A stretch of 64,000 bases of DNA from Caenimonas koreensis DSM 17982. Its GTDB lineage: Bacteria; Pseudomonadota; Gammaproteobacteria; Burkholderiales; Burkholderiaceae_C. The notes beneath the pieces are model-generated. The model was not told the origin of the DNA and ran no database searches. It saw only the letters and a program-made list of their open reading frames with translations. Positions 7,888 to 45,191 of this stretch are shown piece by piece. The number at the start of each line of letters is the position of its first letter. Position 1 is the first letter of the stretch. Made by a program: the position numbers and the translations under genes. The stretch spans positions 62,001 to 126,000 of the forward strand of contig NZ_WJBU01000015.1 in the NCBI RefSeq assembly GCF_009646335.1. The letters run 5' to 3'.

Positions 7888-8627
7888 GAGGCTGCCTTGG
7901 CGGCGAGCGCTGCGGCGGCGGCCTGGAGCTGCAGGCGGCAGTCGGCGGGGGAGGGAAGGCGCTGCCACGCGACGCTGGTGCCAGCACCGACCTTCACACC
8001 CATTCCGTGCATGCGCTGAACGGTTGCGAAGCCAACTTCATCGGTGATGTCATCGCCGATGAACACGGGTGAGCGGCCCGCGAATGGCGCTTCCTTCATG
8101 AACGCTTCGATCGCCAGGCCCTTGCTGGCACCGCCCGGCTTGGCTTCGGCCACCATCTTGCCGCGCAGCAGCGTCACGCCGGGCGACTGGGCTACAGCCG
8201 CTTCCATGGCGGCGATGCACTCGGCTTCGAGCTGCGGCGCCTGGCGGTAGTGCAACGCGATCGAGCCGCGCTTGATTTCGATTCGCAGGTCCGGATGGCG
8301 CGCTGCCAGTGCCTGCACCACCTCTTCCACCCGCTCCAGGGAATAGGTGCTGAGCAGTGTGATTTCACCACTCGCATCGCGGCGCTCGGCGCCGTGCACG
8401 CCGGCACTGGGCAGTCTCAGCGGTGCAAGGTACGCATCGACCTGCTCGATCGGCCGGCCCGAAATGATCGCGACGGCGCCGCCCAAAGAGTGCTGAAGCG
8501 ACTCGAGCGCGGGAGACAGGCCGCTCGGGACGAGCACCTCGTCAGGCTGTGGCGCGATGTCCACCAGCGTGCCGTCGAAGTCCAGGAAAAGCGCGCATGA
8601 GGGAAACAGGAAATCCACCAGGTTCAT
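7884..8627 (-). CDS. otsB: Trehalose-6-phosphate phosphatase
   Basis: 247 residues of the HAD superfamily. Motif I is FLDFDGTLVD near the N-terminus and motif IV is FIGDDITDEVGF towards the C-terminus, both typical of OtsB. It dephosphorylates the OtsA product to trehalose. It is first in the otsB-GH15-otsA operon, whose promoter must lie in the 172-bp gap before the divergent enoyl-CoA hydratase gene. The ATG at 8627 is preferred over the longer frame to 8714 because it places the DxD motif at the usual distance from the N-terminus. Confidence 0.93.
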   Translation of the reverse strand: MNLVDFLFPSCALFLDFDGTLVDIAPQPDEVLVPSGLSPALESLQHSLGGAVAIISGRPIEQVDAYLAPLRLPSAGVHGAERRDASGEITLLSTYSLERVEEVVQALAARHPDLRIEIKRGSIALHYRQAPQLEAECIAAMEAAVAQSPGVTLLRGKMVAEAKPGGASKGLAIEAFMKEAPFAGRSPVFIGDDITDEVGFATVQRMHGMGVKVGAGTSVAWQRLPSPADCRLQLQAAAAALAAKAAS

Positions 8628-8685
8628 GCACGCTACGCTACCAGACGTGCTGCGCTGCAACCAGATCGCCCGTGCGCTTTGCCCC

Positions 8686-8701
8686 GTAGGACTAGGCCTA
8701 C
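8686..8701. promoter_or_regulatory. 16-bp near-palindrome upstream of the trehalose operon
   Basis: GTAGGACTAGGCCTAC is a dyad with a single mismatched pair, 59 bp upstream of the otsB start. It matches 10 of 14 positions of the enterobacterial RcsAB box (TAAGAATATTCCTA) and resembles sites of LuxR/RcsB-type response regulators. Stress control of trehalose synthesis through such a regulator is plausible but inferred. Confidence 0.35.
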
Positions 8702-8799
8702 CGGCGCACGGCAAAGAGGTGACTCAGCACGGGAGGTCCTGCATGGCCGTACAGTGCAAGCTGCGTGAGACAACGCGCCATCATTGAAGGAATACGCCC

Positions 8800-9594
8800 A
8801 TGGACTATTCGCGCTACGAAACTCTCTCGATCACCCGTCGCGGCCCGCACGATTCAGTGCTCGACATCCAGATGCGCGCCTTGAACGGCAAACTGCCGAC
8901 AGCGGGCCACGAAGGCCACCGTGAACTTGCGCAGATCTGGCGGGATGTGGGCGACGATGAGTCTGTGCGATGCGCTGTGTTGCGCGGCGAAGGGCTTGGT
9001 TTTTCCGGCGGCGGCGACCTGGCTTTGGTCGAAAACATGGCGAGCGACTTCGAGGTGCGCACACGTGTCTGGAAGGAAGCGCGCGACCTGGTCTACAACG
9101 TCATCAACTGCGACAAGCCCATCGTGAGTGCGTTGCATGGCCCGGCAGTGGGCGCTGGATTGGTGGCGGGCTTGCTGGCAGACATCTCCATCGCCGCCAG
9201 GACCGCAAAGATCGTCGATGGCCATACGCGGCTGGGCGTGGCGGCGGGCGACCATGCCGCTATCGTGTGGCCCTTGCTTTGCGGGATGGCAAAAGCGAAG
9301 TACTACCTGATGTTGTGCGAGTCCGTGACGGGTGAGGAGGCCGATCGCATTGGCCTTGTGTCGATGGCGGTGGACGCTGAGGACTTGCTCCCGAAGGCAT
9401 ACGAAGTTGCAGATCGCCTCGCCAATGGTTCTCAGAGCGCCATACGCTGGACGAAGTACTCGCTCAACAACTGGCTGCGCCAGGCGGGCCCGGCGTTCGA
9501 CACGTCACTGGCGCTGGAGTTCATGGGCTTCGCGGGTCCCGATGTGAAGGAGGGAATTGCATCGCTGCGCGAGAGGCGCACGCCGAACTTCTGA
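8800..9594 (+). CDS. Enoyl-CoA hydratase/isomerase family protein
   Basis: 264 residues of the crotonase fold. The two oxyanion-hole segments are visible as [11 protein letters not shown] and [19 protein letters not shown]. Members hydrate or isomerise acyl-CoA thioesters. GAAGGA upstream of the ATG at 8800 serves as ribosome-binding site. It is monocistronic and divergent from the trehalose operon, so context does not name a pathway. The usual catalytic Glu pair cannot be assigned confidently from reading alone. Confidence 0.85.
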
Positions 9595-9617
9595 CGCTCT
9601 GGGATAATCTCGCCCAC

Positions 9618-9983
9618 ATGCAAGCCCTGCGCCGCGCCCATTTCCTCGCCCGCCTCGTGCTGGCGTGGTTCGTGTTGTCGCTCGGCGTGGCTGTCGCAGC
9701 GCCCATCGTCAATCCGGTCGGCATGCAGCTGATCTGCTCGGCCGGCGGCGTGATGAAGGTGTTGCCGGCGAGTTCCAGCGGCGAGCAGCCCAGCACGGCG
9801 CAAACGATGGACTGCCCGTTGTGCGCGTCCGTCTCGGCGCCGCCTCCGGCCACGCTCGAGTTGGTGCAGTTGCACCAGCGCGCCGTGGCCCTGGTGGCCG
9901 TCGAGCCCGAATCGCGCATTGTCCAGGCCGAAGCGGCGCCGCAACCGGCGCGCGGGCCACCCGCGGGCAAGCGCCTCCACTAG
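9618..9983 (+). CDS. DUF2946-type exported protein
   Basis: 121 residues with an N-terminal hydrophobic signal segment (about 10-28, ARLVLAWFVLSLGVAVAA) and the family's CPLC motif in TMDCPLCAS. Proteins of this type are regularly encoded next to copper-related TonB-dependent receptors and YcnI/PCuAC proteins, exactly as here, so a role in periplasmic or outer-membrane copper handling is likely. No biochemical function is established. Confidence 0.75.
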   Translation: MQALRRAHFLARLVLAWFVLSLGVAVAAPIVNPVGMQLICSAGGVMKVLPASSSGEQPSTAQTMDCPLCASVSAPPPATLELVQLHQRAVALVAVEPESRIVQAEAAPQPARGPPAGKRLH

Positions 9984-10042
9984 AGCCCCCGCGCCTGGTT
10001 GATCCGCGCGGGGAATTCCCCCGTTTGCAGGAAAGAACCAGC

Positions 10043-12409
10043 ATGTTTCGCCGTTCCTTGCCGCGAGCCTGTGCGCTCGCACTTTCACCCGTAGTTGCGC
10101 CTGCGCTACTTCTTGCCACCCCCCTCGCTGCCTGGGCCGACCACCCAGGCGACTCGCAGGCGCGCTCGCTTGGCGTCGTCACCGTCATCGGTGGCCAGCC
10201 CACGTCACTGCCCACGCAGATACCGACCACGCTGGAAGTCATCACGCGTGAACAGATCGAGCAGTCGATCAATGCGACTGACAGCGAAGACGCGCTGAAG
10301 TACTTCCCCAGCCTGCTCGTTCGCAAGCGCTACATCGGCGACTACAACCACGCCATCCTGTCCAGCCGCGCATCGGGCACCGGCAACAGCGCACGCTCGG
10401 CGGTGTACGCCGACGGCATCCTGTTGTCGAACTACCTGGGCAACGGTGTCGGCGGACTGAGCTTTCCGCCGCGCTGGGGGTTGGTCACGCCCGAAGAGAT
10501 CGAGCGCGTCGATGTGATGTACGGCCCGTTCTCTGCGGCCTATCCGGGCAATTCGGTCGGTGCGGTGGTGGACTACGTCACGCGCATGCCTCGCAAATTC
10601 GAGGCGCACGGCAAAGTGGGCTACGTTTCGCAGCCCTTCGCGCTTTACAACACGAATGCCACCTATCGAGCGTGGCAAACGAGCGCTTCGGCGGGGAACA
10701 AGGCCGGTGACCTGTCGTGGTTCATCAACTTCAACCACACGGAAAGCCACGGCCAGCCGCTGACCTTTGCCACGCGGCTGGTGAGTGCGGGAACCGTGGG
10801 CAGTGCAGGCACGCCCGTCACGGGCGCGGTGCTCGAGCGCAACAACGCGAACGCGCCGTGGTACGTGCTGGGCACCGGCACCGAATACGAAACGCGGCAG
10901 GATCACGTCAAGGCCAAGCTGGCTTACGACCTCGGATCAGGCTTGCGGGCGGCGTACACGCTGGGTGTGTGGCAAAACACGTCGACCGGACGCCCTGTTT
11001 CGTACTTGCGCAACGCGGCGGGGCAAGCCGTGTACAGCGGCGCGGTGAACATTGACGGCCGCTCCTTCTCGCCATTGACCGGCGGCGACTTTGCCTTGAC
11101 CGATGAGCGCCTCACGCACGTGATGCACGGCTTGTCGCTCAAGACGCACACGCAGGGTGTCTTCGACTGGGAAGTCGCAGCCAGCCTCTACGACTATTCG
11201 CGCGACCAGAAGCGGCAGAACAGCGCGGCAAATACCTTGCCTGGTGCAGCAAGCGGCGGCGCGGGAACGATAGCCGACGGCGGCGGCACGGGATGGCGCA
11301 CGCTGGCGCTGAAAGGCACGTGGCGGCCCGCTGGCGTGGCGGGGCCGCACATCATTGACTTTGGCGTGCAGGACGACGCGTTTGCACTGCGCTATCTCAC
11401 CTCCACGATCACTGGTGACTGGACGCGCGACGGCGCAGGCGCAGTTGCCAGCAATGTCGGCGGCAGAACGCGCTTGCAGAGCTTCTACGTGCAAGACGCG
11501 TGGGCGTTTGCACCGGGCTGGAAGACAGTGCTCGGCGCGCGCGCTGAAGCGTGGTCAGCCATCAACGGGTACACGCAGATTCCCGCTGCCACGCCCGCGG
11601 TCAACACGCAGTGGCCATCGCGGCGCGAAGCCTTTGTGTCGCCCAAGGCGGCGCTGTCGTGGCAATTTCAAAGCGACACGGTGCTCAAGGCTTCTTTGGG
11701 CCGCGCGATCCGCTTCCCGACGGTGGGCGAGCTCTACGGCGCAACGTCAACGGCGAATTCGCAATACATCAACGATCCGTTGCTGCGGCCTGAGCGCTCG
11801 TGGACGGGCGAGCTCAGCGCGGAAAAGGATCTGGCCAATGCGCTGCTTCGCGTGACCTTGTTCGCCGAAGACACGCGCGACTCGCTCTATTCGCAAACCA
11901 CGTTTGATCCGCTTGCCAACCGCAATGTCAGCCGTGTGCAGAACGTGGGCCGTATCTCAACGAAGGGTGTCGAGGTTGCGTATAGCGGCGTCGACGTGTT
12001 TCGCAAGGGGCTGGACGTCAACGCCAGCGTGACCTACGCAGACTCAGTGATCAAGGAAAACGCCGGTTTTGTCAGCGTGCGGGGCGACACCATCGGCAAG
12101 CAGCAACCCAACATCGCGAAGTGGCGCGCGACAGCGCTCGTCGCGTATCGTTGGAACGACCGCTGGTCAACGTCGGTTGGCGCGCGCTACAGCGGCAGGC
12201 AATACCGCACGCTGGACAACAGCGACGTCAATGGCTACACCTACCAGGGGGTGAGCAAGTTCTTCACTGTCGATGCGCGTGTGCGTGTGAAGCTGAACGA
12301 GCAACTCTCTGCCGCGTTCGGCATCGATAACCTCAATAACGACAAGTTCTGGAATTTCCATCCTTACCCGCAGCGCAGCTACAGCGCAGAATTGAAGTAC
12401 GACCTATGA
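10043..12409 (+). CDS. TonB-dependent outer-membrane receptor (probably copper-related)
   Basis: 788 residues. A signal peptide (about 1-32, ending AAWA) is followed by a plug domain at about 45-165 (ITREQIEQ, then ERVDVMYGPFSAAYPGNSVGA) and a C-terminal beta-barrel ending in the aromatic-rich SAELKYDL. The ATG at 10043 is chosen; the open frame extends back to 9665 through the DUF2946 gene but that part reads as an out-of-frame shadow. It overlaps the next gene by 4 bp (ATGA). Its neighbours, DUF2946 and YcnI-PCuAC, point to copper or copper-chelate uptake; ferric-siderophore uptake is the main alternative. Confidence 0.85.
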   Translation: MFRRSLPRACALALSPVVAPALLLATPLAAWADHPGDSQARSLGVVTVIGGQPTSLPTQIPTTLEVITREQIEQSINATDSEDALKYFPSLLVRKRYIGDYNHAILSSRASGTGNSARSAVYADGILLSNYLGNGVGGLSFPPRWGLVTPEEIERVDVMYGPFSAAYPGNSVGAVVDYVTRMPRKFEAHGKVGYVSQPFALYNTNATYRAWQTSASAGNKAGDLSWFINFNHTESHGQPLTFATRLVSAGTVGSAGTPVTGAVLERNNANAPWYVLGTGTEYETRQDHVKAKLAYDLGSGLRAAYTLGVWQNTSTGRPVSYLRNAAGQAVYSGAVNIDGRSFSPLTGGDFALTDERLTHVMHGLSLKTHTQGVFDWEVAASLYDYSRDQKRQNSAANTLPGAASGGAGTIADGGGTGWRTLALKGTWRPAGVAGPHIIDFGVQDDAFALRYLTSTITGDWTRDGAGAVASNVGGRTRLQSFYVQDAWAFAPGWKTVLGARAEAWSAINGYTQIPAATPAVNTQWPSRREAFVSPKAALSWQFQSDTVLKASLGRAIRFPTVGELYGATSTANSQYINDPLLRPERSWTGELSAEKDLANALLRVTLFAEDTRDSLYSQTTFDPLANRNVSRVQNVGRISTKGVEVAYSGVDVFRKGLDVNASVTYADSVIKENAGFVSVRGDTIGKQQPNIAKWRATALVAYRWNDRWSTSVGARYSGRQYRTLDNSDVNGYTYQGVSKFFTVDARVRVKLNEQLSAAFGIDNLNNDKFWNFHPYPQRSYSAELKYDL

Positions 12410-13281
12410 ACAAGCACCTCTTTGCCTTTGTTGCCGCGCTCGCTCCCCTGATGGTAGGCGCCCACGCTTCGCTCGAAACGCCCATCGCCGAAACAGGCGC
12501 CGCCTATCAAGGCGTGCTGCGCATCGGGCATGGATGCGACGCCTCGCCCACCACGGCGCTCGCGATGCGCCTGCCTGCCGGCTTCGAAGGCGCGCGGGCG
12601 CTGCCCAAGCCCGGCTGGACGGTTGATACCAAGCCCGGCGTGCTGAGCTGGACGGCGGCGTCGAAAGACGCGGCGTTGCAGCCCACGCAGCGCGGCGAAT
12701 TCGCTTTCGCCGTGACAGCGCCGCGCGCTGCAGGCCCTGCCTGGATCAAGGTGCTGCAAACCTGCGAGAAAGGCGCGCAAGACTGGGCTGACGTGCCAGC
12801 CGCCGGCACTTCGGTCGCCGGCATGAAGACGCCGGCCATGTTGCTCGCCGTGCTCGCGCCGCGCGAATTCGCCATGGCGAAGATGCTGCCGCGCGTCGAG
12901 GGCGGCTGGGTGCGCGGCACGGTGCCCGGCCAGTCGGGCACCGGCGCATTCATGCGGCTGACGGCCAGCGAGCCGGTGCAGCTGGTGGGGGTGACGACGC
13001 CCGCTGCCGGCACTGCGGAGGTCCATGAAATGAAAATGGAAGGGGACGTGATGCGCATGCGCGCCATGCCCAAGCTCGACCTGCCCGCCGGCCAGGTCGT
13101 CGAGCTCAAGCCGGGCGGCTATCACCTGATGCTGACGGACTTGAAGCAACCCTTGCAAAAAGACACGACCGTGCCGCTCACGCTGGTGTTTCGCAATGCC
13201 CGCGGGCTGGAGAGCCGCATGGACGTCAGCCTGCCCGTTCAGATGCTGGGCCCGGATGCAATGGGCGGCCACAAGCACTGA
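12406..13281 (+). CDS. YcnI (DUF1775) - PCuAC copper-binding fusion protein
   Basis: 291 residues. Signal peptide 1-19 ends in GA; cleavage would leave His20 as the mature N-terminus (HASLE), the ligand position described for YcnI copper proteins. DUF1775 spans about 20-160. A PCuAC domain follows at about 165-285 and carries the full copper motif H207-X10-M218-X21-H240-X-M242. Single-domain YcnI is about 180 residues, so this is a true fusion. It is translationally coupled to the TonB receptor and probably passes Cu(I) to cuproenzymes in the periplasm, such as the cytochrome oxidase CuA site. Confidence 0.88.
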   Translation: MNKHLFAFVAALAPLMVGAHASLETPIAETGAAYQGVLRIGHGCDASPTTALAMRLPAGFEGARALPKPGWTVDTKPGVLSWTAASKDAALQPTQRGEFAFAVTAPRAAGPAWIKVLQTCEKGAQDWADVPAAGTSVAGMKTPAMLLAVLAPREFAMAKMLPRVEGGWVRGTVPGQSGTGAFMRLTASEPVQLVGVTTPAAGTAEVHEMKMEGDVMRMRAMPKLDLPAGQVVELKPGGYHLMLTDLKQPLQKDTTVPLTLVFRNARGLESRMDVSLPVQMLGPDAMGGHKH

Positions 13282-13330
13282 GGTTGGGGTAAGCTGTACG
13301 GACTGCACCAAAGCGAACCGGAGCGCGGCC

Positions 13331-13996
13331 ATGAGCGACGATCAATCGATGGGTTTCGGCAAATTCGTGCCCGGATTCGACTTCCTGCAGAACCTCGCGA
13401 AAAGCGCTTCGCACACGCTGCCGCAGATGCCCAATCTGTCGAATTGGGTTGCGCCGACGCTCAACGTCGAAGAGCTCGACAAGCGCATCGGCGAATTGAA
13501 GGCGGTCCACTTCTGGCTGGACCAGAACTCCAAGGCGCTGGGCGCGACGATCCAGGCGCTCGAAGTGCAGAAGATGACGCTGGCCACGCTCAAAGGCATG
13601 AACTTCAACATGGGCGATGTCGCCAATGCGCTCAAGCTCAAGGCGGCTGATACGGTGATCACCGGCGTGCAGAAAGTCAGTGAAGCAGCGGCGGACTCGG
13701 CAACGGCAATCTCCAACGCAGCCGCCAAGCAGAAAACGACGACTGGCAAACGTAGGGCTGCGAGCAAGGCGGCTGCGGCACCCCATGTTGTGGACCCGAT
13801 GCAATGGTGGGGCGCGCTGACCCAGCAGTTCCAGCAGATCGCGACCACGGCCATGAAAGACGCCGCCACGCAGACAGCCGTGGACACGGCCAGGAACGTG
13901 GCCACTGGCGTTGCACGTGGCGCGCTCAAGTCAGCCACAGGCATGGCGAAGGCTGCAAGGGCCGGCGCGCGCAAGGGCCGCGCCGCGAAGAAATGA
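13331..13996 (+). CDS. phaM: PhaM-type polyhydroxyalkanoate granule regulatory protein
   Basis: 221 residues. The N-terminal part contains the characteristic NLSNWVAPTLNVEELDKRI and LKAVHFWLDQN, then a helical region, and a C-terminus rich in Lys, Arg and Ala (KAARAGARKGRAAKK) like the histone-like tail by which PhaM binds DNA. In Ralstonia PhaM activates PHA synthase and tethers granules to the nucleoid. The start at 13331 has a GGAGCG upstream. Its stop overlaps the FIST gene start as ATGA. Confidence 0.85.
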   Translation: MSDDQSMGFGKFVPGFDFLQNLAKSASHTLPQMPNLSNWVAPTLNVEELDKRIGELKAVHFWLDQNSKALGATIQALEVQKMTLATLKGMNFNMGDVANALKLKAADTVITGVQKVSEAAADSATAISNAAAKQKTTTGKRRAASKAAAAPHVVDPMQWWGALTQQFQQIATTAMKDAATQTAVDTARNVATGVARGALKSATGMAKAARAGARKGRAAKK

Positions 13997-15240
13997 AGCT
14001 GTTCCCCTTCGGCCACGCCACGCATCCGCAATGGCAGATGGCAGCGGGCCTGGTGCTCGCGCAGGTACGGGCGCAAATGGCCCTGCACGGCTATGCCAGC
14101 TCGCCGACGCTGGGCATTCTCTACATCACCGATCACTACGCCAATGACGCGCAGGACATCCTGGACCATCTGGGCGCCGAGCTGCCCGAGATCACGGACT
14201 GGTCTGGCACGGTAGGTGTGGGCATAGCATCGTCGAACGTAGAGTACTTTGACGAGCCAGCCCTTGCCGTGATGCTCTGCGAGCTGCCCACGGACCAATA
14301 CCGTGTGTTCTCGGGCGTCGCCCCGCTGGGCCTGGGGTTCGAGCCCCACACGGCGCTGGTCCATGCCGACGCGAGTACGCCGGATGTGGCCGAGCTCATC
14401 GCAGAGATGGCGGGTCGTACGGCGACGGGCTACCTCTTCGGCGGTCTTTCGGCCAGTCGCACGCAGGCGGTGCAGTTTGCGGTGGGCGGCAACGGCAACA
14501 TCCGCGGCCATGGAGCGGCGGGCGGGGTGTTTCGAGGCGGGCTGTCGGGCGTTGCTTTCGGCGAAGGCATCACGCTGGTGTCGCGCGTGACGCAGGGCTG
14601 CCAGCCAGTCGCGCCGCAGCGCCTGATCACGGCGGCGCAGGGCAACGTCATCACCGGGCTTGATGGCGAGCCTGCCCTCGATGTTTTACTGCGCGACACG
14701 CATATCTCGCTCGATGAGCCCGAGCAGGCCATGAGCGCACTGCGCGCGACGCTCGTCGGGCTGGTGGAGCCGGGTGCCGACGCCGTAGCGCGCACGGGCA
14801 ACTTCGGCGCGGATGTGGTCGTGCGCCACATCATCGGCCTCGATCCGGGCCGGCGCGGCGTGGCCGTGGCTGACCAGGTCGAGACGGGCATGCGCATGGC
14901 CTTTTGCCAGCGCAATTCGGTGGCGGCGCGTGCTGACCTGGTTCGCATTTGCGCCGAGATTCGCGAAGAGCTGGAGCCGCAGGAGATGACGCTGCCGGTG
15001 GCTGCCGCCCTCGCTTCGAACGACGCCCAGGCGGCGCCCAGCCCCGAGCGGCGCATTGCCGGGGCGATTTACGTGAGCTGCGCCGGGCGTGGCGGGCCAC
15101 ACTTTGGCGGGCCGAGCGCCGAGCTGCAGATCGTGCGGCGCGCGCTCGGCGATGTGCCGCTGGTCGGCTTTTTTGCCGGCGGCGAAATTGCACGCAACCA
15201 CCTGTACGGATACACCGGCGTGCTCACCGTTTTCTGCTGA
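13993..15240 (+). CDS. FIST domain sensor protein
   Basis: 415 residues made of an N-terminal FIST domain (about 25-230) and a C-terminal FIST_C domain (about 235-400, including GGPHFGGPSAEL and FFAGGEIARNHLYGYTGV near the end). FIST domains are proposed to sense small ligands such as amino acids and usually feed signal-transduction pathways; here no kinase or cyclase domain is attached. The ATG at 13993 overlaps the phaM stop, so the two proteins are probably made together. Confidence 0.87.
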   Translation: MKLFPFGHATHPQWQMAAGLVLAQVRAQMALHGYASSPTLGILYITDHYANDAQDILDHLGAELPEITDWSGTVGVGIASSNVEYFDEPALAVMLCELPTDQYRVFSGVAPLGLGFEPHTALVHADASTPDVAELIAEMAGRTATGYLFGGLSASRTQAVQFAVGGNGNIRGHGAAGGVFRGGLSGVAFGEGITLVSRVTQGCQPVAPQRLITAAQGNVITGLDGEPALDVLLRDTHISLDEPEQAMSALRATLVGLVEPGADAVARTGNFGADVVVRHIIGLDPGRRGVAVADQVETGMRMAFCQRNSVAARADLVRICAEIREELEPQEMTLPVAAALASNDAQAAPSPERRIAGAIYVSCAGRGGPHFGGPSAELQIVRRALGDVPLVGFFAGGEIARNHLYGYTGVLTVFC

Positions 15241-15242
15241 CT

Positions 15243-16418
15243 ATGGCGACTCGCAAATCTCACCGCATTCCCACGCTCTGGCAAGGCTTTCGCTGGTCGC
15301 TCGGCGCCGACGCTTCAGGCGGCGGCACGACGCCGTATCGCATGGCGTGGCGCGCGCTGAACGCAACGCTGTGGCACAGCAGGGCCATGAAACGCTGGAT
15401 GACGGTGGTGTACGAGCTGCACTCGCGCAAAGTCATCGAAGACATGCCGGGCGAGTATTTGCGGGCCGTGCGCCCGTATGTGCACCGCGGTGTCGGCTTC
15501 AACGAACGCGTCGTGCAGCTGATCGACCATATGGACTGGCTCGAAGGTGCCTTCCAGCGCGCAGCGTTCGAGCAGATTGTGTCGGGCCAGCCGCTGACCC
15601 TTGTCGAGCTGACGGCGCCGCGCGGCTACGACTACGTGCGGCTGCAGTTGCAGCAGGCGCCGCTGCCCAGCCCCGAAGGCGACATGCTGCTTTCGCTCAA
15701 CCTGCAGCGTTCTGCCGACGTGCAGCACAAGGCAGAAAACGTGGAAGCAGCGGTGCTGGCGTTCAGCCGTTTTCGCATCGACGACAAGCCCTGCCTGGTG
15801 ATCGGCGGTGTGCGCGGCCAGCGCCATCCAACGCAGCGCGTGAGCCTGACGGAGCTGAGCCAGGCACTGCAGGGCTGGAAGCCGTCCGTGTTGCTCGTGC
15901 GCGTGGCGCAGGAGCTTGCGCGCTACTGGCAGCTGCACCTCATCGGCCTGGACCCGGCTGCGCACCGGTTGCACGACTGGTCGTATCGCTGGAAGAAGAA
16001 TCGCCGCGAATCGGGACAGCGGATCTTTGCTGCCTACGACGCGTTGTGGGATCACTTCGACTGCAAGCCCGGGCCGCTGGGCTGGGTCGTGGTGCCGCTC
16101 AATTCCGACGAAAAGCTTGCGGCCACTGCGCTGTCGCCCGAGAAGCGCGCGCGGCAAACCAGCCGCGCCGACTACTGGATTCGCACACGCAACGTCATGC
16201 GCGCCGAATTCAGGCGGCTGTTGCAAAAGCCTGTGCGCGAGGCGCGCCTGTCGCACCTGACGGAGACGATGGATCGCGAGAGCATGCGGGCGCGGCTGAA
16301 CTACCCCGACGTGATCAAGGACGAATTCGACTTCGACGACGACAGCCAGGACAGCCAGAACAGCGAAGACATGGTGCCGTCGCGCGTGCTGGCGACGGGG
16401 CCGGGCAACCTGGTCTGA
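15243..16418 (+). CDS. VirK/YbjX (DUF535) family protein
   Basis: 391 residues, cytoplasmic. The DUF535 core contains YLHRGV-like YVHRGVGFNER, then MLLSLNLQ, FRIDDKPCLVIGGVRGQR and the C-terminal DYWIRTRNVMRAEFRRLL. The family includes Salmonella VirK and Escherichia YbjX, implicated in envelope or virulence phenotypes, but the biochemical role is unknown. It starts 2 bp after the FIST stop and so belongs to the phaM-FIST transcription unit. The C-terminal 30 residues are acidic (DEFDFDDDSQDSQNSED). Confidence 0.82.
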   Translation: MATRKSHRIPTLWQGFRWSLGADASGGGTTPYRMAWRALNATLWHSRAMKRWMTVVYELHSRKVIEDMPGEYLRAVRPYVHRGVGFNERVVQLIDHMDWLEGAFQRAAFEQIVSGQPLTLVELTAPRGYDYVRLQLQQAPLPSPEGDMLLSLNLQRSADVQHKAENVEAAVLAFSRFRIDDKPCLVIGGVRGQRHPTQRVSLTELSQALQGWKPSVLLVRVAQELARYWQLHLIGLDPAAHRLHDWSYRWKKNRRESGQRIFAAYDALWDHFDCKPGPLGWVVVPLNSDEKLAATALSPEKRARQTSRADYWIRTRNVMRAEFRRLLQKPVREARLSHLTETMDRESMRARLNYPDVIKDEFDFDDDSQDSQNSEDMVPSRVLATGPGNLV

Positions 16419-38987: not shown

Positions 38988-39383
38988 ATGCGTCACGGCC
39001 ACGGCCTTCGTAAACTCAATCGCACCAGCGAGCACCGCCTTGCGATGCTGCGCAACATGATGAACTCGCTGCTCCAGCACGAGGCCATCAAAACCACGGT
39101 GCCCAAAGCCAAGGAACTGCGTCGCGTCGTCGAGCCGATGATCACGCTCGCCAAGGAGCCGACGCTTTCCAACAAGCGCCTGGCCTTTAACCGCCTGCGC
39201 GACCGCGATATCGTGACAAAGCTTTTTGCCGAACTGGGCCCGCGCTACAAGGCGCGCCCTGGTGGTTACACCCGCATCCTCAAGATGGGCTTCCGTGTTG
39301 GCGACAACGCACCGATGGCACTCGTTGAATTGGTCGATCGTCCCGCGCCTGTCGATGCTGCTGATGCCCCTACGGCTGAATAA
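38988..39383 (+). CDS. rplQ: 50S ribosomal protein L17
   Basis: 131 residues, starting [21 protein letters not shown], with a short acidic C-terminal extension ([10 protein letters not shown]) common in this order. Last protein gene of the alpha operon; followed by the initiator tRNA. Confidence 0.98.
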
Positions 39384-39415: not shown

Positions 39416-39492
<77 letters not shown>

Positions 39493-39498
39493 AATTCA

Positions 39499-39528
39499 AC
39501 GCCCACCTTTCTGGTGGGCGTTTTTTTT
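39499..39528 (+). terminator. Intrinsic terminator after tRNA-fMet
   Basis: ACGCCCACC at 39499-39507 pairs perfectly with GGTGGGCGT at 39513-39521 around TTTCT, followed by a run of eight T from 39521. This should end transcription of the rplQ/tRNA unit before the degraded bch genes. Confidence 0.93.
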
Positions 39529-39644
39529 CGTCTCGTCAGATGGAGAGCCGCAGATCAAACGACCTATTCGTGATGGGCCAATGCGCTTCTGCACAAGTTC
39601 AGAGCTGCCCGAACGTCAATTGGATATGACGTACTGATCAGTCT

Positions 39645-40675
39645 ATGGCACTGACATTTCCTTTTTCCGCGATAGTCGGTCAGGACGAGATGAAGCTGGC
39701 AATCCTGGCGACAGTTGTCGATTCCCGCTTCGGGGACGTTCTCGTTATCGGCGATAGGGGCACAGGCAAGTCCACCGTAGCCCGCGTATTTGCCGCCTTG
39801 CTCCCGCCCATGCGGACCATCGCGGGATGCCGCTATGGCGGCAAGCCTGATGCGCCAGCCCCCGCATGCCAAGACTGCGACGTGATGCGCTCGGCCTCCA
39901 AGGTTGCGCCACGGATTGCACGCGAGCCGGTACCCGTTGTCGATCTCCCCCTAGGCGTCACCGAAGACCGCGTCGTCGGGGCACTGGAGCTGGAGCGCGC
40001 TCTGGCGCAGGGCGTGAAGGCATTCGAGCCTGGCCTGCAAGTACGTGCCAACCGGGGCTTTCTCTACATCGACGAGGTCAACCTGCTGGAAGACTACATC
40101 GTGGACGTGTTGATCGATGTCGCCGCGTCGGGTGAAAACGTTGTGGAGCGCGAGGGACTCAGCGTGCGGCATCCGGCGCGGTTTGTCCTGGTTGGCAGCG
40201 GCAACCCAGAAGAGGGCGAACTGAGACCTCAACTGCTGGATCGATTTGGCCTGTCGGTCGAAGTCAAGACGCCGCACGAACTGGAGGAGCGAATCTAAGT
40301 CTTTCGCCTGCGCGACTGCTTCGAACGCGATCCGCAGGCTTTCACGGATCACTGGAAGAAGGAAGTTGAGCGCACCCGCCGCCGGATCGTCGCCGGACGG
40401 GGGCGACTCGAGGCAGTCGAAGTGCCGGACTCAGCGCGTGTGAGAGCTACTCAGCTCTGCACCGAACTGGGCACCGATGGCCTGCGTGGTGACCTCACGC
40501 TGATTCGCGCTGCGCGGGCACTAGCGGCACTGTAAGGCGACGCCGCAGTGGGTGATGCGCACATTCGGCGCATGGCCGCACCACCCCTGCGCCATCGCCT
40601 GCGACACAATCCGTCGATGATGCCGGCTCGACCGTGCGTGTGGAACGCGCCGTGGCGCAGTTGATGGGGCGTTAA
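39645..40675 (+). pseudogene. bchI: Magnesium chelatase ATPase subunit BchI, degraded
   Basis: The first 217 codons are intact: Walker A GDRGTGKST at 36-44 and Walker B FLYIDEVNLL are present. A TAA at 40296 falls where a Glu is expected (ERI*VFRLRDCFERDP). The same frame then carries clear BchI sequence (LRGDLTLIRAARALAAL) to a second TAA at 40533, again in place of Glu. One base is missing near 40613, after which the natural C-terminus (DDAGSTVRVERAV) reads on in another frame to TAA at 40673. The reading ends overlap bchD as TAATG. Mg-chelatase makes Mg-protoporphyrin for bacteriochlorophyll. Confidence 0.88.
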
Positions 40676-41591
40676 TGCCTGGAATCCCGTCCGATGCGCT
40701 GGGCCCTGACTCGGTCTGGGCGGCTGCGCGCTTGGCGGCGGATCCCGTTGGGCTCGGTGGTGCGGCCTTGCGCACACGTGCCGACTCGGCTCACGCTGCA
40801 TGGGCCTCGCGATTGCGAGCCTGGCTTCCCGAAACAACGCCTTGGCGCGGCGTGCCTCACTACACCAGTGATGCCGCCCTGCTCGGTGGACTCGACCTCG
40901 GCGCCACCCTTCAGGCGGGCAGGCCTGTGGCACAAGCGGGGCTACTTGCATTGACGGACGGCGGAGTCATTGTGCTGCCTACAGCAGAGCGCATGACGGC
41001 GAGCCGGGTGGTGCTGCTGGCATCCGTGCTGGCCTGGCGCTTGGAGTCGACTCGTTGCAGGCGCCACTGCAGGCGCAGCGCGTGCGGCCGAAGCGCTCGA
41101 TGCAAAGACCGAAGTCCAGCAGAAGCATGCAGCTCTCGCGGCGCGGCTTGTGTTGGGTCCGCGTGCTACCCAGGTCCCTGTGCCACCAGATCAGACTGAG
41201 TTGCCCGACACACAGCCGAGGCCGCCGAGGCGCCTTCGCCCCAGCAGGAACCGGCGCCGCAAAAACCCGCGGAGCGCGACGACGACAACGCCGTAGGCGA
41301 TGAACAGGCGCCCAGCGCTGACGCTATCGACGACATGGTGCTAGAGGCCATTCCGGCCGGACTGTTGGCCAGCTTGAAGCTCGACGGTAGCCGCAAAAGC
41401 TGCGTGGTTGCCGGCCGCTCAGGTGCCGCGCATCCTCGTCCTACGCGAAGGAAGATGTGGAACCGCTTCTCGCTGACTGCCACGTGCGGCGCAGCCGCGC
41501 GGCCGTCATGGCCTTTCGTGGCGCCGGTGCGGAGCTGTTGTTGCCACCGACGCGCTCACTCGCGCGCGCCAAGCGCAGTCTCGCCGATCTG
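40675..41591 (+). pseudogene. bchD: Magnesium chelatase subunit BchD, degraded
   Basis: Recognisable BchD pieces appear in order but in changing frames. 40675-41035 gives the N-terminus (LAADPVGLGGAALR, LLGGLDLGATLQAGRPV). After a deletion of the central AAA part near 41037 comes ALGVDSLQAPLQAQ; a frame change near 41084 gives AALAARLVLGPRATQ; another near 41220 gives the acidic-proline linker with DDDNAVGDEQ and DDMVLEAIPAGLLASL. A second deletion near 41435 removes the MIDAS part, and from 41448 EPLLADCHVRRSRAAVMAFRG and LLLPPTRSLARAKRSL remain. The gene breaks off at 41591. About 305 codons remain of an expected 550-600. Confidence 0.83.
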
Positions 41592-41780
41592 GTGATTGCA
41601 ACGTCCGTGCTGGACGGGCTGGCGCTGGATTACCGCGGCACTGTGCGCGCAATTCCACCGGGCGACTACTCGCTCAAGCTGCTCCCTGGCCTTTGCCGGA
41701 TGCTGGCCGTGCGCAACCAGCTCGCTGGCGAGAACCTGCTGTCGCTTGTGGCCTGGTTGCTAGCCGCAGGTGTTGCGCAC
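41592..41780 (+). other. Unidentified remnant joined to the bchD fragment
   Basis: The frame of the last bchD fragment continues without a stop to 41903 but no longer resembles BchD. Instead it reads VIATSVLDGLALDYRG, IPPGDYSLKLLPGLCRML and AVRNQLAGENLLSLVAWLL. It looks protein-like rather than random, so it may be a fragment of another lost gene fused by deletion. I cannot assign a family. Beyond 41780 it overlaps the HiPIP remnant on the opposite strand. Confidence 0.3.
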
Positions 41781-41931
41781 TCAGCCCTTCTTGACCCAGG
41801 AGCTGCAACAGCCGTCGCGTCTGCTTCTTCGACCGTGGCAGCATTGCCTGCGCCATGGCCTTCGTTCCCGCCAGCAGCGAGGTGCCTGCGGCCAGTTGCA
41901 TGAAGACCACTCTGCGCTTGCTGCCGCTCAT
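41781..41931 (-). pseudogene. High-potential iron-sulfur protein (HiPIP), degraded
   Basis: A GGAGAG ribosome-binding site leads to MSGSKRRVVFMQLAAGT and ending TKAMAQ, a Tat-type signal sequence of HiPIP precursors. After a frame change near 41848 the mature N-terminus continues as NAATVEEADATAVA, then jumps directly to CSSWVKKG and a stop, the usual HiPIP C-terminus (WCSAWVKK type). The intervening 45 or so residues, with three of the four [4Fe-4S] cysteines, are deleted. HiPIPs donate electrons to the reaction centre in several purple bacteria, which fits the neighbouring bch remains. Confidence 0.75.
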
Positions 41932-42065
41932 GGGCGACTCTCCCGAAAATGAAAAACGGGTGCCGCCGAAACGGCGCCGCAAATGCAGGGGCGTCATCAG
42001 GTTGCGTCATTTGTCGCTGGGGCTTGTGCCGTCAGCGCGGCTGTGCTCCTTGATCAGACGCTAAC

Positions 42066-42785
42066 CTACTGCCCGTTGACACTTTTCCGGGCCTGCATAG
42101 CACGACGCACGACTGCGGTCAGTTGATCGGGTGCATCGATGAAATAGGCGTCTGTGGGCGGTTCGCCATGCCCGTAACCCCAGCTGACCCAGGCCGCGTG
42201 GGCGCCCGCCGCCCGGGCCGCCCCCATGTCGGCGATCGAGTCGCCGACCATCAACAACTCGCCGGGCGCGCGGCCAAGATCGTGCGCGGCCCTGGCAAGC
42301 AGCGCCGGCCCGGGCTTGCGGTCTTCGCGGCGATCTGCGCCGTAAACGGCCGTGAGGTACGGCGACAGGTTTGCTGCAGCAATCACTGCACGCGCCAATG
42401 CGGTGGGCTTGTTCGTCACGACCACCAGGGGGCACCATGCTGCCAGTTCACGAAGCGCGGCTTCCATGCCCGCATAGACGGTGCCCAACCCAAGTGGCGC
42501 GGCAAGCGTCGCGGCGTCGAAGCCTCTGCGCAAGGCAGCGGGATCAGCATGTGCCGTGACATCGCCGCGCGCCCGCATGAAAGCGATGGCCCGGGCGATC
42601 AGCGCATCGGGTCCGTCACCGACCCAGCCGCGCACGGCGGCCACGTCGAACGAATCCATCCCACCGAGAAGCCGGGCCTCTCGCAACGCATGGTTCAGTG
42701 CATGGGCGATGTCGGGCGCGCTGTCCACCAGCGTGCCATCGAGGTCAAGCGCAACCGCCTTGACGGGGAGCTTCGAGCCGGTCAA
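42066..42785 (-). CDS. gph: Phosphoglycolate phosphatase
   Basis: 239-residue HAD hydrolase. Motif I is ALDLDGTLVDSAPDIAHALN, motif II VVVTNKP and motif IV MVGDSIADMGAARAAG, all typical of Gph. It removes 2-phosphoglycolate formed in DNA repair or, in autotrophs, in the Rubisco oxygenase reaction. It abuts the SDR gene directly (no gap), so the two are one transcription unit. Confidence 0.9.
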   Translation of the reverse strand: MTGSKLPVKAVALDLDGTLVDSAPDIAHALNHALREARLLGGMDSFDVAAVRGWVGDGPDALIARAIAFMRARGDVTAHADPAALRRGFDAATLAAPLGLGTVYAGMEAALRELAAWCPLVVVTNKPTALARAVIAAANLSPYLTAVYGADRREDRKPGPALLARAAHDLGRAPGELLMVGDSIADMGAARAAGAHAAWVSWGYGHGEPPTDAYFIDAPDQLTAVVRRAMQARKSVNGQ

Positions 42786-43469
42786 TCAGGTCTTGCCAGT
42801 TACCGGAAGCAGTGCGCCTGTGATGGCGCCCGCAGCATCCGACAGCAGGAATGCAATCGTCTTTGCGATGTCTTCGCCCTTGACCCATCGGCTGTGGTCG
42901 GCATCGGGCATGTCGGCGCGGTTTTGGGGTGTGTCGATGGTGCTGGGGAGCACTGCATTGACGGTGATGCCTTGCAGCTTGACCTCATCAGCCAGCGACT
43001 CGGTGAACCGCATGACGCCTGACTTCGACGCCGCATAGGGCCCCATGCCGTTTGCACCCTTGAGCGCGCCCATCGCGCCGATATTCACGATGCGCCCGGT
43101 GCCTGCGCGCTGCAAGTGCGGCAGCACAGCCTTGGACGCATTCACGCACGTCATCAGGTTGATCGCGAACTGCTGCTGCCACTCCTGCAAGGCGTCGCTG
43201 GAGGCGACCGTCTGCCAGCGAAACCCGCCCGCGATATTGACGAGGGCGTCGATGCGGCCGAATCGAATGGCAACTTCATTCATGACACGCGCCACATCGG
43301 GCAGCGATGACAGATCGACCTGCCATGCGACCGCGCCCGCAGGAGCTTCGCGCGTCACGACATCCAGCAGTGCGCACTGCGCGCCTTGATGCAGTGCCTC
43401 TTGCGTCATCGCACGGCCGAGCTGGCCGAATGCGCCGGTGATGACAACGACTTTGCCAGTGAGTTCCAT
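42786..43469 (-). CDS. Short-chain dehydrogenase/reductase
   Basis: 227 residues with the classical SDR elements: cofactor motif TGAFGQLG near residue 11, NIAG in place of NNAG, catalytic Tyr and Lys in YAASK and a final proline-rich loop. The substrate is unknown. First gene of the SDR-gph pair. The variant VNIAGG is still compatible with activity. Confidence 0.88.
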   Translation of the reverse strand: MELTGKVVVITGAFGQLGRAMTQEALHQGAQCALLDVVTREAPAGAVAWQVDLSSLPDVARVMNEVAIRFGRIDALVNIAGGFRWQTVASSDALQEWQQQFAINLMTCVNASKAVLPHLQRAGTGRIVNIGAMGALKGANGMGPYAASKSGVMRFTESLADEVKLQGITVNAVLPSTIDTPQNRADMPDADHSRWVKGEDIAKTIAFLLSDAAGAITGALLPVTGKT

Positions 43470-43557
43470 GTGGAGGGTTGTAGCAGAAGCGGCATTCGAA
43501 ACACAACCCGGCGCAGGTGCACCTGAGCCTTTGCTGCGAGCTAACTGCTACGTAAGA

Positions 43558-43575
43558 AGCCGCTAAGGAGCGGCT
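43558..43575 (+). repeat. 7-bp hairpin upstream of the DUF4148 gene
   Basis: AGCCGCT at 43558-43564 and AGCGGCT at 43569-43575 form a perfect stem around AAGG, 56 bp before the DUF4148 start. It lies where the promoter or leader of that gene should be and may stabilise its mRNA or serve as an operator. The remaining part of the 161-bp gap shows nothing distinctive. Confidence 0.35.
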
Positions 43576-43630
43576 AATCGCCGCTGCCTACATTCACTTC
43601 ATCAACAACGCAACGCAAAGGAAACTCATC

Positions 43631-43996
43631 ATGAACCGCAACATCGCTTCCATCCTCGTCGTCACCGCCGCCGCATTCGCTGGCCAGGCCTTCGCCGAAA
43701 CACCGACGATCGATACGACCAACTTTGTCCCGGTCCAAAGCCGTGCGCAAGTGCAAGCCGACCTCGCCGCCTACAAGCAAGCTGGCGTCAATCCGTGGTC
43801 AACGCAGTACAACCCGGTCAAGACATTCCGCAGCACGCAAACACGCGCGCAAGTGACGGCGCAATACATGGCCGATCGTGATGAAGTCGCCGCGACGACT
43901 GGTGAAGACAGTGGCTCCGCGTACCTCGCCCAAGGCACGACGAACCATCTTCCTGCCAGCGCCACGCTGGCAGGGGACTTCGTCAAGGTGAACTGA
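43631..43996 (+). CDS. DUF4148 family exported protein
   Basis: 121 residues with a signal peptide (about 1-22, ending AFA), then the DUF4148-type repeats SRAQVQADLAAYKQAG and TRAQVTAQYMADRDEV. These small periplasmic proteins are multiplied in Burkholderiales genomes and are of unknown function. It has its own terminator and is therefore monocistronic. Confidence 0.85.
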   Translation: MNRNIASILVVTAAAFAGQAFAETPTIDTTNFVPVQSRAQVQADLAAYKQAGVNPWSTQYNPVKTFRSTQTRAQVTAQYMADRDEVAATTGEDSGSAYLAQGTTNHLPASATLAGDFVKVN

Positions 43997-44016
43997 GCGC
44001 AGCAAGCGCAAAAGAC

Positions 44017-44046
44017 AAAGCCCGGGTGACCGAGCTTTTTTTTTTT
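44017..44046 (+). terminator. Intrinsic terminator after the DUF4148 gene
   Basis: AAAGC and GCTTT with an inner CGG/CCG stem around GTGA (one C-A mismatch) are followed by a run of eleven T (44036-44046). It ends 22 bp before the tRNA-Arg gene on the opposite strand. Confidence 0.75.
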
Positions 44047-44067
44047 GGGATTTGCCAATGGCAATCC

Positions 44068-44143
44068 TGGTGCGGCTGGCGGGGATCGAACCCACGACCC
44101 TTGGCTTCGGAGGCCAATACTCTATCCACTGAGCTACAGCCGC
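44068..44143 (-). tRNA. tRNA-Arg (CCG anticodon)
   Basis: 76 nt including encoded CCA on the minus strand. Acceptor GCGGCTG/CAGCCGC, D-arm GTAGCTCAGTGGATAGAGT, anticodon loop CTCCGAA giving CCG, T-loop TTCGATC. It reads CGG arginine codons. Confidence 0.95.
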
Positions 44144-44239: not shown

Positions 44240-44279
44240 CGAAGGTTGATTGCAACAGCCCGCCCAACTCGAGGATGTC

Positions 44280-45191
44280 ATGAGCGATAGCCCGCACGAA
44301 GAAGCCCACACCGGCCCGGTCAAGAACCCCAAGCAGCTGCTGATCGCGGTGTTTTTCTCGTTCGTCATTCCGGTGTTCGCGATCATCGGTCTGGTGTACT
44401 ACGTTGTTTCTGCAAGCAAGCCTGCTGGCCAGGCTACCGCTGATGGCAGGCCGCTGGCAGGCGTCACCACTGACGACCTTGAACGAGCCATCGCAGCGCG
44501 CATCCGCAAAGTGGGCTCCGTCGAAATCCGCGACGCGAATCGCCCGCTCAAGCCGGGCGAAGAAGTCTTCAAGGCCCAGTGCACGAGCTGCCATACCGCA
44601 GGCGTGGCAGGTGCCCCGAAATTCGCCGACGCCGCCGCATGGGCTCCCCGCATCAAGACAGGCTACGACGCACTGCTGGCTTCGGCCTTGAAGGGCAAGG
44701 GCAATATGCCTGCCCAGGCGGGCGGCGATTTCGACGACATCGAAATTGGACGTGCAGTGGCGTACATGGCCAATGCCGCCGGTGCCAAGTTCGCTGAGCC
44801 CGACCGGCCCGCTGCAGCCGCCGCCGCATCGGCCTCGGCGCCAGCCGCTGCAGCTGCCGCAGCCCCGGCGGCCACCGCGGCGCCCGCTGCTGCCACCGTT
44901 GCCGCAGCTGCCCCTGCGGCAGCCGCCGCCCCTGTCGTCGCTGCCGCAGGCGGCGGCGCTGGCGAAGCGCTCTACAAGCAGGCTTGTGTTGCGTGCCACG
45001 GTGCCGGCCTGGCTGGCTCGCCCAAATTTGGTGACAAAGCCGCTTGGGCACCTCGCATCGCTCAGGGCATTCCGGTGCTGGTGACGAACGCGATCAAGGG
45101 CAAGAACGCCATGCCCCCCAAGGGCGGCAGCACCGCCTCTGACGCAGACATCAAGGCGGCAGTCGAATACATGGTCAGCGCAGCGAAGTAG
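44280..45191 (+). CDS. Membrane-anchored dihaem cytochrome c5
   Basis: 303 residues. One N-terminal membrane helix (about 19-44) anchors the protein; two c5-type haem domains follow with haem sites CTSCH at 101-105 and CVACH at 236-240, joined by a 50-residue Ala/Pro linker. The methionine ligands are in KGNMP and KNAMPPKGG. Such proteins shuttle electrons between the bc1 complex and terminal oxidases or other periplasmic acceptors. The ATG at 44280 is preferred over 44250, which lies in the promoter region. Confidence 0.92.
   Translation: MSDSPHEEAHTGPVKNPKQLLIAVFFSFVIPVFAIIGLVYYVVSASKPAGQATADGRPLAGVTTDDLERAIAARIRKVGSVEIRDANRPLKPGEEVFKAQCTSCHTAGVAGAPKFADAAAWAPRIKTGYDALLASALKGKGNMPAQAGGDFDDIEIGRAVAYMANAAGAKFAEPDRPAAAAAASASAPAAAAAAAPAATAAPAAATVAAAAPAAAAAPVVAAAGGGAGEALYKQACVACHGAGLAGSPKFGDKAAWAPRIAQGIPVLVTNAIKGKNAMPPKGGSTASDADIKAAVEYMVSAAK

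Follow-up and report, generated by a model that had tools for sequence, protein, structure and literature searches.

Decayed bchI, bchD and probable HiPIP genes in Caenimonas koreensis DSM 17982: the likely scar of a lost photosynthesis gene cluster

Positions 39645-41931 of a 64 kb stretch of the Caenimonas koreensis DSM 17982 genome (the window) are very likely what remains of a bacteriochlorophyll photosynthesis gene cluster (PGC) that was lost; we put the probability of this reading at roughly 0.85. At least two cluster genes are disrupted there, the order and orientation are those of an intact cluster, and the functional set is absent from the genome. An earlier reading of the letters alone (the sequence-only reading) had described bchI, bchD and HiPIP here as remnants of photosynthesis genes, all broken. 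This description stands: by their profile matches, the identity of the bchI and bchD remnants is certain, that of HiPIP is probable, and the genome has no PufL/PufM match.

Results

Three broken genes between two tRNAs

From tRNA-Met to tRNA-Arg, the genes run bchI (+), bchD (+), probable HiPIP (-), gph-like (-), SDR (-), DUF4148 (+). With their flanks, the features are as follows.

38988..39383, + strand: rplQ, the conserved left flank; together with the tRNA it aligns at 80-87% DNA identity to most genomes of the genus
39416..39492, + strand: tRNA-Met(cat), from ARAGORN; left border of the extra block; compared relatives align to 39493-39532
39645..40675, + strand: bchI remnant; 217 codons open, stops at 40296 and 40533, frame change at ~40613
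40675..41591, + strand: bchD remnant; N-terminal part up to ~41031, scraps in the middle, VWA piece at 41457-41591; right end approximate
41781..41931, - strand: probable HiPIP remnant; signal peptide, shifted mature start, last 8 residues and stop
42066..42785, - strand: gph-like HAD phosphatase; open, in the extra block, no photosynthesis gene
42786..43469, - strand: SDR gene; open, in the extra block
43631..43996, + strand: DUF4148 protein; in the extra block
44068..44143, - strand: tRNA-Arg(ccg), from ARAGORN; right border; compared relatives resume at 44057-44068
44250..45191, + strand: cytochrome c with two cbb3-type domains (cyc2 here); conserved right flank

In a profile search, the open stretch 39645-40295 matched the BchI family TIGR02030 with an E value of 1.1e-102 (343.6 bits), and the next piece, 40299-40532, carries on along the same profile (E = 3.1e-19, 69.4 bits). 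Both pieces are below the curated cut-off for a full-length member (466.95 bits), and, by its sequence, the window's bchI is a remnant and no functional BchI. Its best family is BchI, not cobaltochelatase or YifB. A match search gave 76% identity to BchI from G085, a genome of the same genus, versus 55-63% for a weaker class of matches across the family. In a frameshift-aware alignment with the same protein (336 residues, 73.8% identity), the lesions are two in-frame stops (40296 and 40533) and a single frame change near 40613. The bchI stop codon (40673-40675) overlaps the start of bchD (40675). Protein matches on the minus strand over bchI were taken as antisense shadows of it and set aside.

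The bchD remnant matches NF009943 at 40675-41196 (E = 9.3e-31, 107 bits) and at 41457-41900 (E = 5.1e-17, 61.6 bits). These scores are far from the cut-off of 571 bits, and the N-terminal and VWA parts expected of BchD (NF009943/TIGR02031) do not lie in one open frame. Two comparisons place big losses near 41031 and at 41430-41457, with exact edges that differ; the two internal losses are very roughly 60-90 codons. Both comparisons also give four frame changes and an aligned path without an in-frame stop. What is retained is approximately the first 110 residues (to 41031), then scraps, and then the VWA piece. The lesions claimed in the sequence-only reading, which were two stops and a frameshift in bchI and deletions and frame changes in bchD, are thus borne out.

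On the minus strand, 41931-41781 reads as a Tat-like signal, then VEEADATAVA in a shifted frame, and finally CSSWVKKG with a stop after it. The iron-sulfur core is lost, and the last cysteine alone remains. Against a profile of 23 HiPIP proteins, the C-terminal 16-mer is the top hit among all six frames of the window (18.8 bits; the next is at 9.1). Whole HiPIP proteins gave no match to the full window at E = 1e-3, and searches of the 2.6 kb region alone gave pieces with E values of 0.002-0.007. The longest frame is without a match in NCBIfam or Pfam, and no mature PF01355 domain with its four cluster cysteines is present. From these similarities, we consider 41931-41781 a probable HiPIP remnant; the earlier statement that three cluster cysteines are gone fits a remnant in which the last of the four is the one kept, provided that it is indeed HiPIP. 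The remnant probably belonged to the photosynthesis cluster, an assignment that is made from its position.

Genes that the genome lacks

The PufL/PufM profile PF00124 has no match in the C. koreensis genome, so reaction-centre genes pufL and pufM were not found by this profile; as a control, it matched in one of 14 named genomes (Synechococcus). We also queried the genome with the DNA of three 20 kb PGC stretches. The G028 stretch covers the 3' part of bchI, bchD, bchO, crtE, crtF, bchCXYZ, and pufBALM. The G076 stretch covers bchD, bchI, puhE, acsF, puhC, puhB, puhA, lhaA, bchM, L, H, B, N, F, and ppsR. The G085 stretch covers bchH, bchL, bchM, lhaA, puhA, puhB, acsF, puhE, crtI, B, C, D, A, and pufC, M, L, A. 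The G028 and G076 queries recovered the window itself at 68-74% identity, which serves as an internal control. The other queried PGC genes (a set that excludes bchG, bchP, and pucC) were not found in this genome by DNA, a search that would miss cluster genes decayed well below ~68% identity. The genome-wide search for pufLM, bchCXYZ, and crt genes that had been suggested earlier found none, by the PF00124 profile and the 20 kb queries.

Six strong pieces on contig C42 from the G028 query were rejected as further cluster DNA: the scanned open reading frames there have cytochrome c assembly, CcmE, CcmF, and CcmH domains and form a ccm block. Four leftover DNA matches of 37-152 bases, to crtE, bchL, bchH, and bchL parts of the queries (on C11, C37, C41, and C23), are presumed paralogues. 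When 44 cluster proteins and HiPIPs were compared with the 64 kb window, bchI and bchD alone matched (labels such as crtE, crtF, and crtA in this protein set are our own assignments, made in part from product names). Across 41560-42070, where a deletion junction would lie, there were weak alignments only and no convincing piece of bchO or bchP, and the junction itself cannot be seen. As a separate observation, the PGC in G028 has DNA that matches this genome's ccm block, with crtE on one side of it and bchO on the other (L045, G028:C104, 11188-15785).

BchI and HiPIP as markers of phototrophy

In the family, 115 of 399 genomes match the window's BchI at 1e-20, and 65 do so at 3.1e-86 or better. 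PufLM is also present in 61 of these 65. The four others are C. koreensis itself, G017, G355 (84% complete), and G338 (79% complete). Conversely, just two of 63 genomes with PufLM (G132 and G461) have no strong BchI match. The remaining BchI matches are 48 at 55-63% identity, which we take to be another chelatase class, plus G363 and G107, both of which hold a stop. BchI is a good marker of phototrophy in this family.

Within the genus (60 genomes), seven have BchI at 2.7e-97 or better (C. koreensis, G085, G017, G026, G006, G028, and G089), and G002 has a weaker match. Five of the 60 carry PufLM (G006, G028, G034, G085, and G089). G034 is rated 100% complete and has no BchI match at 1e-20; its puf-crt genes are on a contig of 11 kb whose end falls within pufL (L049, G034:C30).

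HiPIP behaves differently. It is present in 16 of 59 genus genomes (the copy in G087 is a fragment), and 13 of these 16 are without PufLM; C. koreensis itself has an intact copy elsewhere (C12:104719-104916). This rules out HiPIP as a photosynthesis-only marker. The sequence-only reading tied all three genes to photosynthesis alone, a view that is supported for bchI by the 61 of 65 co-occurrences but fails for HiPIP.

An intact cluster and the site of the scar

In G085, contig C2 carries HiPIP and then bchP at 78.4 kb, and continues through puf to bchZYX at the contig end; C7 carries bchX, bchC, crtFE, bchO, bchD, and bchI. Because the ends of C2 and C7 share an exact 119-base overlap, G085 has one cluster, of ~42.0 kb. 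Its outermost genes, bchI (beside bchD) and HiPIP, lie at opposite ends and face inward, as in the window. Outside this cluster, there was no PGC match in 16 kb beyond bchI (L172) or in ~22 kb beyond HiPIP (L237 and L238). Unlike the window, the G085 cluster is complete, with open frames, and it occupies another chromosomal site with different neighbours. The genes that had been called adjacent do adjoin in the window, but they are not natural neighbours: since bchI/bchD and HiPIP are at opposite ends of the cluster in G085, their adjacency points to a lost interior.

In four same-genus genomes (G034, G035, G003, and G019), alignment to the window breaks off at 39493-39532 and resumes at 44057-44068; their two tRNAs are 0.2-0.9 kb apart. 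The window's block of ~4.5 kb is therefore extra. One of the four, G034, is a PufLM carrier yet has the short tRNA-Met/tRNA-Arg site. In 25 of 29 rplQ loci, cyc2 was not seen within flanks of ~1.5 kb or less; in a longer stretch from one of these 25, G012, it does appear, past ~4.9 kb of other DNA that separates the two tRNAs and has no match to cluster proteins. A shared tRNA/cyc2 neighbourhood is thus supported by a few loci and may not be general across the genus. As a side observation, the tRNA-Met/tRNA-Arg interval holds differing inserts (window 39493-44068; G012, L184, 5408-10297) and may be an insertion hotspot.

Rhodoferax sp. D15.bin.5 (L071) shares with the window tRNA-Arg, the cytochrome c gene, and the gene after it; beyond these come PPK2, an FrhB/FdhB-domain gene (presumably bciB), and a full-length bchI; the start of bchD comes after bchI at the contig end. 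Here, bchI-bchD has the opposite orientation to the window's. With bchI-bchD beside the same tRNA-Arg flank, this interval can flank a PGC. An intact cluster at the window's exact site and orientation was not found in any genome compared.

Comparing relatives at the gph locus, as the sequence-only reading advised, was misdirected, because gph belongs to the extra block and what relatives share is the tRNA-Met/tRNA-Arg interval. We dropped gph as a syntenic anchor: the window's gph protein is unmatched in the compared bchI or rplQ loci. Among the matches listed for 59 genus genomes, long DNA matches to the SDR part are in G015 and G012, off their rplQ contigs.

We propose that an ancestor, whether of long phototrophic descent or a recipient of the cluster by transfer, had a PGC of ~42 kb with the G085 layout, bounded by tRNA-Met on the rplQ side and by tRNA-Arg on the cytochrome c side. 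Its two inward-facing ends would have been bchI-bchD and HiPIP. Phototrophy would then have been lost, with one or more large deletions taking out the DNA that separated the 3' part of bchD from the 3' end of HiPIP, and the stranded ends would have decayed through point changes and short insertions and deletions. A cluster at this site, a deletion that joined its ends, and decay after that deletion make up the simplest reading of the arrangement.

Alternatively, a bchI-bchD-HiPIP fragment might have arrived in the tRNA interval with gph, SDR, and DUF4148 in a failed or partial transfer and never have worked. This would fit the absence of ~39533 to 44056 from the four short-site relatives, the patchiness of PufLM in the genus, and the other DNA between the same tRNAs in G012. 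However, one random fragment would hardly bring in both ends of a G085-type cluster, each facing inward, and L071 has bchI-bchD beside the same tRNA-Arg flank. We consider such a transfer improbable.

Age of the loss

If a cluster was lost here, the open part of bchI gives a rough relative age. It departs from the consensus at seven of 97 columns that are invariant in 87 intact rows; when intact rows were left out one at a time, they departed at 0.21 columns on average and three at most. (The set left out C. koreensis's own copies, G002, G064, plasmid records, duplicates, and matches of <200 residues; a rebuilt alignment had 87 rows and 97-98 invariant columns.) About three quarters of random changes alter the amino acid, so seven of 97 corresponds to roughly 0.03 substitutions per site (95% Poisson range 0.013-0.065) from the time when constraint was lifted. 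When pairs were compared within three bins matched for third-position divergence, second-position divergence for the window averaged 0.151, 0.148, and 0.159, versus means of 0.120, 0.133, and 0.135 for intact pairs, and it was below the 95th percentile of intact pairs in every bin (0.155, 0.164, and 0.168). This agrees with relaxed constraint in direction only. These departures fit a loss that is recent on the scale of the genus, as a relative age and not a date, and so favor the earlier view of a fairly recent loss.

In a tree of the open part (94 rows), the window has a long end branch (1.14; median 0.08) and belongs to a group of 66 rows whose order is not resolved. By tree path, its nearest rows are G085 and G026, in a tree whose bootstrap had not converged. 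The BchI tree does not place the window, and no donor can be named from it.

The genome is in 43 contigs and the lesions are known from the assembly alone, so the genes could in principle be intact in the organism, or the contig foreign, through an error of sequencing, assembly, or binning. But several lesions of different kinds fall within 2.3 kb, and the genes to either side are open and match their families; the contig is 133,730 bases long and has ribosomal protein genes; the assembly is 100% complete with 0.56% contamination; and invariant columns are changed to excess even in the open part of bchI. We think an artefact very unlikely. It is just as hard to believe that the open 217-codon piece is still useful as an ATPase: its frame is open, its second-position divergence is within the range of intact pairs, and its nucleotide-binding motifs look kept in our alignment, but a stop cuts off the C-terminal part, seven of 97 invariant columns are changed, and its partner bchD is broken.

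Published losses and the value of a scar

Loss of phototrophy has been invoked, for example in PMC3338782, for the scattered distribution of photosynthesis in Proteobacteria. The same source describes PGC loss in Citromicrobium JLT1363 as compared with JL354, with flanking gene order kept. As with C. koreensis, a non-phototroph stands beside a phototrophic relative with the cluster missing. In JLT1363, however, one hypothetical gene replaces the PGC, whereas here both cluster ends are partly readable. The words "pseudogene," "remnant," and "bchI" did not turn up in the text of that paper (PMC3338782). A 2025 review mentions remnant carotenoids in non-phototrophic Acetobacteraceae (PMC12654162). 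In the open-licence literature, we found no description of bchI, bchD, and HiPIP decayed to remnants in Rhodoferax.

Lost clusters often leave nothing readable, and so loss and original absence look alike. This scar gives the direction of change (loss of function), the likely site (the tRNA interval, next to which a relative has the same genes), the likely mode (interior deletion that spared both ends), and a rough relative age; with a set of such scars, gains and losses could be counted separately in the family. This PGC fossil is ordinary in kind and unusually readable.

Partial clusters in other genomes

Two genomes of the same genus, G017 (100% complete) and G026 (90%), have bchI-bchD-bchO without a PufLM match. 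In both, bchI and bchO are above the curated cut-offs, and bchI has no departures at the invariant columns. A third genome, G363, is from the same family (96% complete, 4% contamination), has no PufLM match, and shares its genus with the PufLM carriers G290 and G482. There, bchI is without its first ~125 codons, at a sharp break, and the bchD and bchO frames are open (L263, G363:C100, 13167-16604); this is perhaps a second, independent partial loss of a PGC. All three are draft assemblies, which were searched with PF00124 and, on the fetched stretches, with cluster proteins. They are like C. koreensis in that the bchI-bchD part persists where PufLM was not found, and unlike it in that bchI and bchO pass their cut-offs in G017 and G026, while G363 has a shortened bchI and open bchD and bchO frames.

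That a bchI-bchD end is left in each of these PufLM-less genomes is a pattern that deserves a test rather than a rule. bchIDO is one of four conserved bch regions, according to the 2025 review (PMC12654162). It is conceivable, although we hold it as doubtful, that PGC loss in the family is repeatable, with large deletions leaving the bchI-bchD(-bchO) terminus for last. Intact G017 and G026, truncated G363, and decayed C. koreensis would then be possible successive stages, and bchIDO in G017 and G026 may be selected for a non-photosynthetic use. No further cluster-set protein matched in the stretches fetched from these two genomes (L050 and L051), where the open bchI-bchD-bchO genes lie at 11878-15547 (L050, G017:C184) and 6481-10195 (L051, G026:C54).
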